From Azotosporobacter soli (GTDB taxonomy: Bacteria; Bacillota; Negativicutes; SG130): 64,000 nucleotides of DNA. The translations under genes and the position numbers were made by a program. Shown here one piece after another: positions 24,401 to 41,523 of this stretch (positions are counted from its first letter, which is position 1; every line of letters begins with the position of its first letter). The notes beneath the pieces are model-generated. The model ran no database searches. It was not told the DNA's origin and was given only the letters and a program-made list of their open reading frames with translations. The stretch lies in contig NZ_JAUAOA010000002.1 of the NCBI RefSeq assembly GCF_030542965.1, positions 1 through 64,000 on the forward strand, in the 5' to 3' direction.

Positions 24401-24432
24401 TATGGAACATCCCGACTCCCAGAAAGGAATGA

Positions 24433-24512
24433 CAACCTGGCAATCATAGCCGTCGTCAGACGACCTTAGACCCAATGCTTTGCGTCCCCAGTTTTCACTG
24501 AGTTTGCCCAGT
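24433..24512 (-). ncRNA. Cyclic di-GMP-I (GEMM) riboswitch aptamer
   Basis: Read on the minus strand, this has the core features of the GEMM-I aptamer. GGGCAAAC precedes a hairpin CAGT-GAAA-ACTG (24489-24500) with a GNRA tetraloop. The invariant GGACGCAAAGC follows (24477-24487). The tetraloop receptor halves are UCUAAG (24465-24470) and UAUGA (24444-24448), flanking the P2 stem built on GTCG/CGAC. CTGG and CCAG close the base. It ends about 100 bases before the RTX-caspase start and is followed by an intrinsic terminator. Whether ligand turns the gene on or off cannot be decided by eye. Confidence 0.92.
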
Positions 24513-24547
24513 ATGCAATTTTCGTTTTGCTTGCATCTTCCAATTCC

Positions 24548-38031: not shown

Positions 38032-39339
38032 TTATCCCTCAAGTAACGTTATCGCCTGTGCAGCTGGCAGCTCGAACAGCGACAGCTGTTCTGCACCTGC
38101 GGCCAGACCGCCTTGCGCGCGATACAGCGCCAGCGTCTTTTGCGACAATAGCGAGCGCAGCACCGTTTGCTGACTGCATTTGATCAGACTCGCACTCCTG
38201 CCGCCGCAGAGAATGAAGTGCTGCGCCCGTTTCAGCACGACGCCGAGCTTTTTCAAATCCGCCTCCTGCAGCGTCGCCATGCGCCGCGCCGCGATGATCC
38301 GCTTGGCGCTCATCACGCCGATGCCGGGTACCCGAAGCAACGCTTCATACTCGGCGCGGTTGACGTCGACCGGAAAAAATTCACGGTGATTCAGCGCCCA
38401 GTTGCATTTCGGATCGACAAACGGATTGAAGCTTTGATGCTCTCCATCAAGCAGTTCGTTGGCCGCGAAACCGTAAAAGCGCAGCAGCCAATCCGCCTGA
38501 TACAATCGATGTTCGCGCCAAAGCGGCGGCTGCGTATCAAGCGATGGCAGCAATGCATTTTCGGCGACCGGCAGATAAGCGGAAAAGAAGACCCGCTTGA
38601 GCTTATACTTTTGATAAAGACTTTCTGTCAGATTCAGAATCTGAAAATCCGTGTCCGGCGTCGCGCCAATGATCATTTGCGTGCTTTGTCCGGCCGGCAC
38701 GAATTTGGGCGCGTGGCGATACTTGACGATGTCTCGCGTCGCCTCCTGGATGCGCTGCTTGATGTAGCCCATCGGCGCTAAAATCGACTGTTTCGACTTG
38801 TCCGGCGCCAAGAGCTGCAGGCTGCGCTGCGACGGCAGCTCGATATTGATGCTCATCCGGTCGGCCAGCATGCCGAGCCGCTCCGTCAACCGATGATCCG
38901 CTCCTGGTATCGCCTTGGCATGGATATAACCATGAAAGCGGTATTCCTCGCGCAGGATTCTGAGCGTCTCAATCATTTGCTCGCAGGTATAATCGGGATT
39001 TTTCAGCACGCCGGAACTTAAGAACAAGCCTTCGATATAATTGCGTCGGTAAAAGTTCATCGTGAGCTCCGCCAGTTCACGCGGCGTGAACGCAGTGCGC
39101 TGCGTTTCGTTGGAAGAGCGGTTGACGCAGTATTGACAGTCATAGATGCAGGCATTGCTCAGCAAGACCTTCAGCAGCGAAATGCAGCGCCCGTCAGCCG
39201 AGAAGCTGTGGCAAATTCCGCTCGCCGCCGCACTGCCAATGCCGCCCGCTCCCGCCCGCTTGTCAACTCCGCTCGATGTGCAGGCGACGTCATACTTCGC
39301 CGCATCCGTCAAAATCTTTAACTTGTCAAACACGTCCAC
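38032..39339 (-). CDS. TIGR03916-like radical SAM protein, putative DNA modification/repair
   Basis: Radical SAM protein of about 435 residues. The cluster motif is CIYDCQYC (C-x3-C-x2-C), in the family setting LLKVLLSNACIYDCQYCVNRSS. Downstream are GLFLSSGVLKNPDYT and GQSTQMIIGATPDTD. A helix-hairpin-helix (GIGVMSAKRIIAARR) near the C-terminus suggests DNA binding. I place the start at the GTG at 39339 (VDVFDKLKILTDAAKYDV), eight bases behind AAAGGAG; an ATG 51 bases upstream overlaps the -10 box. Partner of the TIGR03915-like gene. The promoter contains a perfect LexA box. Confidence 0.92.
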   Translation of the reverse strand: MDVFDKLKILTDAAKYDVACTSSGVDKRAGAGGIGSAAASGICHSFSADGRCISLLKVLLSNACIYDCQYCVNRSSNETQRTAFTPRELAELTMNFYRRNYIEGLFLSSGVLKNPDYTCEQMIETLRILREEYRFHGYIHAKAIPGADHRLTERLGMLADRMSINIELPSQRSLQLLAPDKSKQSILAPMGYIKQRIQEATRDIVKYRHAPKFVPAGQSTQMIIGATPDTDFQILNLTESLYQKYKLKRVFFSAYLPVAENALLPSLDTQPPLWREHRLYQADWLLRFYGFAANELLDGEHQSFNPFVDPKCNWALNHREFFPVDVNRAEYEALLRVPGIGVMSAKRIIAARRMATLQEADLKKLGVVLKRAQHFILCGGRSASLIKCSQQTVLRSLLSQKTLALYRAQGGLAAGAEQLSLFELPAAQAITLLEG

Positions 39340-39360
39340 ACGATCAGCTCCTTTGCCAGC

Positions 39361-39390
39361 ATTATAATACAGAACATATGTTCTGTTCAA
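39361..39390 (-). promoter_or_regulatory. Promoter with LexA (SOS) box
   Basis: Minus-strand TTGAAC and TATAAT with an 18-base spacer. Inside the spacer is ACAGAACATATGTTCTGT (39369-39386), a perfect 18-base palindrome containing GAAC-N4-GTTC, the Gram-positive LexA/DinR consensus. Repressor binding would block the promoter directly. Confidence 0.85.
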
Positions 39391-39451
39391 GTTTTTTTCT
39401 TTTTTCTATTGCTCTGATCTTTAATATTTTTCCTACCGCGCCGCCGCTGAT

Positions 39452-39480
39452 TTGACGCTTGCCGCGAAATGATATATACT
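39452..39480 (+). promoter_or_regulatory. Near-consensus promoter before an attenuator-like hairpin
   Basis: TTGACG and TATACT with exactly 17 bases between; transcription would start near 39487. A terminator follows within about 50 bases, ahead of the DapB-like gene. Confidence 0.75.
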
Positions 39481-39508
39481 GCAATAAATAGAAGATTTTT
39501 CCTCCAGC

Positions 39509-39538
39509 AAGGAGCCTGCTATCGCAGGCTCCTTTTTT
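39509..39538 (+). terminator. Leader terminator (attenuator or small RNA end)
   Basis: AAGGAGCCTGC-TATC-GCAGGCTCCTT followed by TTTTG. No plus-strand gene precedes it, so it must end either a very short RNA from the promoter at 39452 or a regulated leader of the DapB-like gene. Confidence 0.8.
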
Positions 39539-39583
39539 GTCCCTGCAAACTAACCTGCATAGGTTGAAAGAGAAGGATATACT

Positions 39584-40345
39584 ATGATACGCATCGGCAT
39601 TTTGGGCTTTGGCAAGACAGGTAAGATCGTCGCCAACGAGTTTTTAAGCGATCCTCAGTTCCATTTGTCGTGGGTGATTCGCAACACGCACAACGCTTCG
39701 CACAAATATGCCAGCCGTTTATTGGGGCACGAATCGGACGCCGGTGAGATTTTTTCCAGCGCCGATATCGACGCCGCTTTTTTTATCGATCACCCGATCG
39801 ATGCGCTCGTCGATTTTTCCGGCTCCGGCGGCCTTACCTTTTATCAGCGCGCCGCCGAAGCAGGCGTCCCGATCATTTCAGCCATTTCAAACTACACGCC
39901 GCACGAACAGGCGTTGCTCCACTCTTTTAGCGCGTTAACGCCGCTTCTCTATTCGCCCAACATCACGCTCGGCATCAATGTGTTGTTGGTCGCGGCGCAA
40001 ATTCTGCAAAAGATTGCACCGCACGCAGACATTGAAATCGTCGAAGAACATTTCAAAGGCAAGAGCGAAGTATCCGGCACGGCGAAAAAGCTGGCACAGG
40101 TCCTGCAACTGGATGCAACGCAGCATGTAAATTCGATCCGGGTTGGCGGCGTAATCGGACGGCACGAAATTATTTTCGGCATGCCGAACCAAACGATTCG
40201 CCTCTCGCATGAGAGCATCAATCGCGCCGCGTTCGGTCAGGGCGCGATTTTCGCTGCTAAATTTCTTATCGGCCAGCCGCCCGGCCTGTACACGATGGAA
40301 ACGATTATCGCCGGAATGTTTCGGCAAAACATTCCAGTCTATTAA
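39584..40345 (+). CDS. Dihydrodipicolinate reductase (DapB)-like protein
   Basis: NAD(P)H-dependent reductase fold of 253 residues. The dinucleotide motif GILGFGKTGKIV starts at residue 5. DapB landmarks are ALVDFSGSGG, SPNITLGINVLL, EIVEEHFKGKSEVSGTAKKL (His and Lys of the catalytic loop kept, but the usual PSGTA reads VSGTA) and SIRVGGVIGRHEIIFG. The sequence drifts from canonical DapB in the active loop, so it may be a genuine but divergent 4-hydroxy-tetrahydrodipicolinate reductase or a paralog. No other lysine gene is near. AGAGAAGGA precedes the ATG. Expression is probably attenuated by the leader hairpin upstream. Confidence 0.82.
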   Translation: MIRIGILGFGKTGKIVANEFLSDPQFHLSWVIRNTHNASHKYASRLLGHESDAGEIFSSADIDAAFFIDHPIDALVDFSGSGGLTFYQRAAEAGVPIISAISNYTPHEQALLHSFSALTPLLYSPNITLGINVLLVAAQILQKIAPHADIEIVEEHFKGKSEVSGTAKKLAQVLQLDATQHVNSIRVGGVIGRHEIIFGMPNQTIRLSHESINRAAFGQGAIFAAKFLIGQPPGLYTMETIIAGMFRQNIPVY

Positions 40346-40349
40346 CGAC

Positions 40350-40388
40350 AAAGCACCCTGGATACTCAAACGAGTCCCAGGGTGCTTT
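40350..40388. terminator. Bidirectional terminator
   Basis: AAAGCACCCTGG / CCAGGGTGCTTT with an inner ACTC/GAGT stem, between the convergent DapB-like and M48 genes. T tracts are short. Confidence 0.75.
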
Positions 40389-40410
40389 GCCAGTTGAAGC
40401 GAAAAACGCT

Positions 40411-41523
40411 TTATTTTATTTCATTGAGAATTTTAGCCAAATCGTCGGCGTTGCCGTCGCCCGCAGTCGCCTGCACAATGGAGGTCTCGCCGATCTTGAC
40501 GACGCCGCTGTCATTGTACGCCTGTTCCGTCGCCGTCTTATTGTGATAGACGCTGGCCAGATGCCCGGCGATGAGGTAGCTGCGTTCCAGCGCGCTCATG
40601 CTGCCTGCGGCAGCCGGTTTCATAAACAGTTTGTTGTTGACTTTGACTTCGCCGCTCGCGGCGTTAACGCTCACTTTATTGTTGCTGTATTCGCTCAGCT
40701 TCTTCGCATAATTATCGCGCCGTTCTTTTTCGCCCGGATGCGTGGACGGATTCAAAAGATCATCCAGCACGCCTTTGCCTTTGCTGGTGCCCTTGTTGTC
40801 GATCACCTTCTGCCACACCGCAGCGGGAGCGCCCGGATTATAACCGGCATCCGTGATATAAGAGAATGCGATATTGTCCGCTTCCCATTCGTTCGGCTTC
40901 GTGATGCCGACCGCCTTGACGTTCTTGGCGATGACATCGACCGCCAGGCGACTGCCGCCGTTCATTTGCGAACCGGCGACCTTCTTTACGAAATCGACCG
41001 TCATCTTTTGCTGCGCGCCCTTGTACGGATGCTGCTTCTGTCCATGCACCATCTCATGCGCGACAACGACCGCGATCTGCTCTTCGTCATTGTCAAAGAA
41101 AGAGAACACGCCGGCATTTACTGAGACATTATGCCCCAGCGTACAATACGCATTAAATTCCGCCTGCGGATTGATAAAATAATTGTACGGCTTGTTTTTA
41201 ATCGACGGTTCCGTTTGGGCAATCGTACCGCTCAGACGTTCCATGATGCGGCTTAATTCTTCATTCAGATAGGCATCATCGACCACGCCGTCCGATTTTT
41301 TTATTTCTTCAAACAGTTCATTTCTGCCGTCGTTCTCATAATAATCCAGTGAGTCCTTGACCTTCTTCTGTTCCACCGCCGTGTTAAGAACCGCGTCGCC
41401 AAAACTTCCCAAACTAAACGCTTCACTTTTGCTTGGTTGCACTAAGCCGCTCGCCAGCGACAGGCAAAGCGCCAACGCACTGACGCCGACTACTGTCTTA
41501 CGAAAAATTTTTTCCCGTTCCAT
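40411..41523 (-). CDS. M48 family metallopeptidase, exported
   Basis: Zinc peptidase of about 370 residues. A signal peptide (VVGVSALALCLSLASGLVQPSKSEA) is followed by the M48 domain: NPQAEFNAYCTLGHNVSVNAGVF, the zinc motif HEMVHGQKQH and the third-ligand helix EWEADNIAFSYITDAGYNP, then HPGEKERRDNY. This matches periplasmic BepA/LoiP-type or Ste24-related proteases that clear damaged envelope proteins. The C-terminal 100 residues (SVNAASGEVKVNNKLF onward) form an extra beta/helical part. The ATG at 41523 follows GGGGTG at a wide spacing; a further 23 codons in frame upstream do not look like a signal sequence. Confidence 0.9.
   Translation of the reverse strand: MEREKIFRKTVVGVSALALCLSLASGLVQPSKSEAFSLGSFGDAVLNTAVEQKKVKDSLDYYENDGRNELFEEIKKSDGVVDDAYLNEELSRIMERLSGTIAQTEPSIKNKPYNYFINPQAEFNAYCTLGHNVSVNAGVFSFFDNDEEQIAVVVAHEMVHGQKQHPYKGAQQKMTVDFVKKVAGSQMNGGSRLAVDVIAKNVKAVGITKPNEWEADNIAFSYITDAGYNPGAPAAVWQKVIDNKGTSKGKGVLDDLLNPSTHPGEKERRDNYAKKLSEYSNNKVSVNAASGEVKVNNKLFMKPAAAGSMSALERSYLIAGHLASVYHNKTATEQAYNDSGVVKIGETSIVQATAGDGNADDLAKILNEIK

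Follow-up and report, generated by a model that had tools for sequence, protein, structure and literature searches.

A promoter-proximal terminator and a riboswitch remnant ahead of a DapB-like gene in Azotosporobacter soli, and the T1 hairpin element of Negativicutes

What is a strong promoter for, if a stable terminator follows it after about 50 nt and ahead of the gene? The leader of a DapB-like gene raises this question in the window, the 64,000-nt stretch of Azotosporobacter soli DNA analyzed here. A preliminary description had named two possible answers: a transcription attenuator sensing an unknown signal, or a short independent RNA. We compared the leader with those of orthologous genes and with known RNA families. 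The reading we prefer, and consider fairly probable on these comparisons, is an attenuator, static and leaky, whose ancestor was a two-input switch for cations and c-di-AMP. The main interest lies in a family of small hairpins found in relatives, called T1 here, rather than in the window's presumably eroded copy.

Promoter, terminator and riboswitch tail of the leader

The coordinates of the features are given in Table 1. The near-consensus promoter of the preliminary description was recovered in a promoter scan of positions 38500-40500, which returned six promoter-like sites (one site being counted twice, as overlapping variants) vs 1.8 ± 1.1 in shuffles, and no further + strand site of at least 9/12 was found between the hairpin and the gene. 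The stable terminator about 50 bases after the start was likewise borne out: its stem and T-run are preceded by a predicted start, and the predicted 55-nt transcript folded at -21.2 kcal/mol (z -3.98), a value equaled by 0 of 200 shuffles. A simple terminator scan gave overall only slightly more hits than chance (5 vs 3.1 ± 1.8 expected); of the five stems, that of the window hairpin is the longest and the richest in G+C. The gap from the hairpin end to the ATG, described as 50 bases, measured about 45-50 nt. No competing structure appeared in the fold of the 5' part of the leader.

Table 1. Positions of the DapB-like gene and of the elements in its leader
Feature	Positions	Strand	Basis and details
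Sigma-70-type promoter TTGACG-17-TATACT	39452-39480	+	Promoter scan, 10/12 consensus bases; predicted start near 39487
Predicted short leader RNA, ~50-55 nt, ending at the terminator	39487-39541	+	Fold-based prediction
Intrinsic terminator hairpin	39509-39538	+	11-bp stem AAGGAGCCTGC/GCAGGCTCCTT (39509-39519/39524-39534) with loop TATC (39520-39523), spanning 39509-39534; T-run 39533-39538
Remnant of the c-di-AMP (ydaO/yuaA) riboswitch 3' end	39550-39577	+	Local alignment; intact riboswitch in orthologues
DapB-like protein, 253 aa, reading frame intact	39584-40345	+	Pfam DapB_N + DapB_C

The only Rfam match at gathering level in the window is a c-di-GMP-I riboswitch (24428-24518, minus strand, 68.9 bits), and none lies in this leader. 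A T-box or lysine riboswitch, dismissed earlier on the length of the leader, gave no match at the gathering score anywhere in the window. Four weak sub-threshold Rfam matches near the leader, three of them on the other strand, look like chance. The upstream neighbor is encoded on the other strand and matches TIGR03916 (putative DNA-repair radical SAM protein), so no + strand gene just upstream evidently feeds the leader.

A perfect palindrome, ACAGAACATATGTTCTGT (39369-39386), overlaps the promoter-like site of the divergent TIGR03916 gene. It resembles a Gram-positive LexA (SOS) box, whose consensus is GAAC-N4-GTTC, and its exact 12-mer GAACATATGTTC has a single occurrence in the genome.

The DapB-like protein scored below the equivalog cut-off of TIGR00036 (DapB, 4-hydroxy-tetrahydrodipicolinate reductase; 104.9 vs 122 bits), and its best solved relative is 1vm6, a dihydrodipicolinate reductase. 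A frame on contig C5 of the same genome, which matches the protein weakly over 50 residues, is probably the ordinary DapB of this genome.

Just before the gene lies a riboswitch tail that the preliminary description had missed. The window retains CTAACCT-GCATAG-GTTGAAAGAGAAGGA, and the conserved 3' block of RF00379 (CUAACC...GUUGAAAGAGAAGGA) is present at the orthologous place. In local alignment to a 3' block query written from Sporomusa orthologues the remnant scored 37; the next best place in the window scored 25, and when the 193-nt leader was dinucleotide-shuffled 5000 times, no shuffle reached 37 (maximum 26). The 14-mer TTGAAAGAGAAGGA of the remnant occurs once in the 3.78-Mb genome. 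Scans by cmscan of 39400-39640 and of 39541-39583, with hits up to E 10 admitted, gave no RF00379 match. Judged by the sequence, the aptamer core is gone and the last ~28 bases of the aptamer are left; their GAGAAGGA end is now likely the ribosome-binding site. Two intact c-di-AMP riboswitches are found elsewhere in the genome, so the loss is local to this locus. In the tree the window branch falls unresolved in a group of 23 rows, and 14 of the 22 others retain the riboswitch, which makes loss in the window lineage the simpler reading.

Leaders of relatives and the T1 element

Orthologues at 60-75% identity came from Negativicutes plus a few others; the searches turned up no second genome of the window's own family. 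Three Rfam scans of orthologue loci found RF00379 directly upstream in 9/20, 8/20 and 4/7 loci, from lists that include duplicates and non-orthologous loci. Among 13 distinct orthologues at ≥70% identity the riboswitch is intact in 10 (the exceptions are L007, L038 and L039), and in the tree it is present in 16 of the 31 rows beside the window. It ends right at the ribosome-binding site in L008, L107 and L041. A promoter and a hairpin with a T-run stand ahead of it in L008, L009 and L011; this promoter-proximal terminator element, T1, was recognized ahead of the orthologue's c-di-AMP riboswitch in these three loci, in L035, in L034/L163 and in G037 (= L010), and alone, without the riboswitch, before the orthologue in L007. 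In total, seven Negativicutes genomes have a recognizable T1 before the orthologue (G010, G027, G037, G045, G312, G313 and G050), and all except G050 also have the c-di-AMP riboswitch. The riboswitch is absent from 15 of the 31 orthologue rows and T1 from the majority, which indicates a high turnover of leaders. In a Clostridia locus (L049, DapB-like protein 51% identical), a Na+ riboswitch (54.2 bits, cut-off 40.5) is followed by a c-di-AMP riboswitch.

Two further stretches were noticed in these leaders. One, starting with ATGCAGRWTGA (L034 2935-2975, similar by eye in L035, L038 and L012), occurs in Sporomusa, Propionispira and G004, where it stops directly ahead of the DapB-like gene's ribosome-binding site, and is also present where no c-di-AMP riboswitch was found (L038, L012). 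It gave no gathering-level Rfam match and is perhaps a third control element. The other (L034 2575-2705, similar in L016) is a structured stretch directly upstream of the c-di-AMP riboswitch and looks similar to the end of an IS200/IS605-type element.

The T1 motif reads GGAGGAG-Y-CUGUCACC, followed by a U-tract. A 15-mer of the relatives' hairpin (GGAGGAGCCTGTCAC, ≤1 mismatch) was found in four of six genomes scanned, once in the window's own genome; its 11 places include at least one inside a coding frame that is not a hairpin, and the reversed control gave zero matches. A covariance model, R1, was then built on ten T1 examples with the window hairpin left out. At E ≤ 0.01 it matched in at least 92 of 380 Negativicutes genomes (a lower bound, owing to stricter filters), and at ≥32 bits it found 79 places in 51 of the 380, from 20 families. 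At E ≤ 0.001 the model matched in 66/380 Negativicutes genomes vs 5/341 genomes (≤30.8 bits) of the class to which L049 belongs, a contrast that is partly built in because R1 was made from Negativicutes. Among 16 genomes to which other orthologue loci had led, one matched (27.1 bits); this set includes the genome of L041, whose leader also occurs in a Negativicutes genome.

The preliminary description had proposed a comparison of related leaders for covariation, and in the T1 family some covariation was seen. In 95 aligned R1 matches (78 distinct) 89.6% of cells pair. Two-sided changes occupy 34 cells (14.5 in shuffles) and covariation is scored at 0.312 (0.237 in shuffles), values attained in 0 of 500 shuffles; because the alignment had been made to fit the structure, these figures are tilted in its favor. 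Counted by pair, two-sided changes are within the ordinary range (5 vs 3.8; 103/500 shuffles). The 5' arm and loop (GGAGGAG-Y-CTG-T-CAC) are near-invariant, and the 3' arm follows via G-U pairs and compensating changes. Such conservation exceeds the needs of a terminator and, by analogy, resembles the case of the HMP-PP (thiS) riboswitch. A promoter is also part of the pattern: the -10 ends 22-40 nt before the hairpin model at 46 of 71 places vs 4.7% of base-shuffled upstreams, where the promoter score is ≥8.7 (54 places) the spacing is 25-30 nt at 38, and no promoter candidate at all was seen in two of the 71. Two other mechanisms were considered. A leader peptide running through the T1 hairpins is disfavored, by eye, since an ATATG before the hairpin is common and not constant and the frames differ; an antiterminator formed by upstream pairing was not seen in the few single folds made (the window and four family leaders).

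We examined the genes behind 78 distinct T1 places (R1 ≥26 bits, copies of one place dropped), which are not independent: a single genus (g11) contributes 11, and others belong to sister species. A frame of ≥150 aa starts within 620 nt at 74 places and at four there is none; a few of the 74 picks are wrong frames. CitMHS is matched by 51 of the 74 proteins (48 ArsB/NhaD/MamN-like, and three that also match CitMHS_2), and the others include six DapB, five NhaA, four Na_H_Exchanger, three sCache sensor kinases and one LytB. NhaD (TIGR00775) is matched at E ≤ 1e-5 by 35/74, a match that does not establish the substrate. At the majority of these places T1 precedes ArsB/NhaD-type, NhaA or CPA transporter genes.

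At L157, L159 and L166, neighboring ArsB/NhaD-type permease genes ~1.4 kb apart carry one T1 copy each. An intact T1 is also present in the ArsB/NhaD-type leader L115 (G000:C4). Very strong T1 copies without a close downstream transporter gene were seen at L120, L122 and L125. Downstream of T1 at L120, no frame of ≥150 aa starts within 620 nt; at L122 and L125 the first gene behind T1 is a tRNA gene on the opposite strand, and L122 has an NhaA gene 404 nt downstream. These three copies could be stand-alone small RNAs.

No Rfam 15 family matched the T1 hairpin in nine loci scanned permissively or in gathering-level scans. The element was not recognized in the literature searched, most subscription journals being outside its scope; the accessible part of a dRNA-seq/Term-seq study of S. 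sphaeroides (PMC12456013) holds nothing on these leaders, and that of PMC6429828 nothing on T1. T1 is apparently undescribed so far and, by its sequence and gene company, looks like a regulated terminator whose associated genes form a coherent ion-transport set.

Origin and present state of the window hairpin

Is the window hairpin a copy of T1? In position it agrees with the family: it lies between the promoter and the riboswitch remnant, and the 25 nt between the end of the -10 and the start of the hairpin model is the commonest T1 value. By sequence it is divergent. With R1 it scored 10.0 bits (E 2.8) and other window hairpins scored up to 15.2. In the conserved arm and loop, GGAGGAG-Y-CTGTCAC, it has changes at G3, G4, T15 and C17, bases present in 93/95, 94/95, 86/87 and 87/87 of the R1 matches. 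In comparisons in which the copy L001 stands for the window hairpin, it ranked first among 173 generic terminators (itself included) against a consensus 13-mer, with 10/13 vs 9 for the next, and at each of the three positions where it departs from GGAGCCTGTCACC one pyrimidine replaces the other. It also shares 21/25 bases with the T1 member L149, the four differences again being transitions; among 241 hairpins L182 ties at 21/25 and L006 has 20, so a likeness of this degree can also be met in ordinary terminators of these bacteria. We concluded from position and sequence that the window hairpin is probably a degenerate copy of T1, common descent being reasonably likely, and that with four near-invariant bases missing this copy has probably lost sensing.

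The main alternative is that T1 was lost from this locus, or never there, and that the hairpin is an unrelated, newly arisen ordinary terminator, either the source of a short independent RNA or a barrier that keeps upstream transcription out of the gene. The low R1 score, the missing near-invariant bases and the plain terminators at L182 and L006 all fit this view. We nevertheless regard it as unlikely, given that both the promoter spacing and the position agree with T1 and that the hairpin came first of 173 for the motif 13-mer.

In the static-attenuator reading, the ancestral order would have been promoter, T1, c-di-AMP riboswitch and DapB-like gene. The aptamer would since have been cut down to its tail, kept as the ribosome-binding site, and T1 would have decayed to a perfect intrinsic terminator with an altered loop. 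Polymerase starting from the strong promoter would mostly stop after ~50 nt, the gene would be made via read-through only, and neither input (c-di-AMP or the T1 signal) would still act in this leader. In relatives, intact T1 is probably a regulated terminator, read through under cation or pH stress and placed in series with a c-di-AMP OFF switch; its sensing could be direct, embedded in the terminator, or could go via a protein that binds the conserved 5' arm and loop. The anatomy of the leader, the riboswitch remnant and the T1 family with its neighboring genes are observed; the transcript start in this scheme is predicted, and we infer the termination efficiency, the signal, the mechanism and a T1 ancestry for the window hairpin. 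Of the attenuator sensing an unknown signal, then, the attenuator part gains support from the conserved promoter-proximal terminator in the same slot of some relatives; the sensing part is doubtful here, since the window differs at positions that the hairpin of the relatives conserves.

That the window leader is still a working switch, a diverged T1 answering to the same or a different cue, appears improbable. The hairpin is strong and clean, the three differences from the consensus are all pyrimidine transitions and the gene is intact; against this, two loop bases of the family kept in 86/87 and 87/87 matches (T15 and C17) are changed in the window, and the fold of the 5' part offers no competing structure. 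Least probable of all, and only slightly credible, is a terminated ~50-nt RNA that acts in trans with the gene incidental, which would fit the very strong T1 members without a close transporter gene (L120, L122 and L125) but not the majority of members, located just upstream of transporter or DapB-like genes, nor the NhaA gene downstream of L122.

Comparison with known tandem switches

Tandem arrangements of Na+-I (DUF1646, RF03071) and c-di-AMP riboswitches before dapB or ablA are described in the accessible part of PMC9337991, where the Dehalobacter ablA tandem was tested as an 'A and not B' gate. As far as that part goes, the leaders studied here are alike in the kind of gene, the c-di-AMP module and a putative cation-linked terminator coming first. 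They differ in that the first module of the two-module Negativicutes orthologues is a hairpin without an Rfam match, not RF03071, and in that the c-di-AMP aptamer of the window is a remnant. RF03071 gave no match at the gathering score in the window and none in its own genome at E 0.01; across the 380 Negativicutes genomes none passed the cut-off and five weak matches were seen, under stricter filters. With no RF03071 match at nine R1 loci either, T1 was rejected as a relative of Na+-I. Because a Na+ riboswitch occupies the same slot at L049 and RF03071 passes the cut-off in 0/380 Negativicutes genomes, we infer by analogy, from gene company and position, that T1 fills the cation-sensing slot in this class.

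A second comparison is with the HMP-PP (thiS) riboswitch, a terminator-embedded aptamer for which, according to the accessible part of PMC6478431, conservation of the terminator loop gave an early hint. T1 shares with it, to that extent, a conserved loop in a classic terminator, a coherent gene set and a tandem arrangement with a riboswitch; it differs in sequence and genes, and in the few folds made T1 showed no alternative structure. HMP-PP (thiS) itself had no Rfam match in the window or in the nine T1 loci.

Taken together with the gene set, these parallels lead us to suggest, tentatively and at slightly less than even confidence, that T1 is a new, very compact regulated terminator with an internal sensing site, which controls sodium/proton-antiporter-type genes across Negativicutes and, together with the c-di-AMP riboswitch ahead of the DapB-like gene, forms a two-input gate. 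If so, T1 would do in Negativicutes what the Na+-I riboswitch does in Clostridia, and the window would be a natural case with both inputs decayed. Were T1 a direct sensor of cations or pH, it would rank with the smallest RNA switches and would explain the control of antiporter-type genes in a class where RF03071 is lacking above the cut-off. The window copy would then offer a natural loss-of-sensing comparison, and the locus an example of how tandem riboswitch leaders may erode while the gene survives.

A second copy of T1 is present in the window's own genome (L154 2044-2083, minus strand; G000:C1:401643-401682) and scored 43.5 bits with R1. It has TGACACC where the family has TGTCACC, and lies ~1.1 kb upstream of a same-strand glycine riboswitch; the gene behind that riboswitch is, judging from its start, presumably gcvT.
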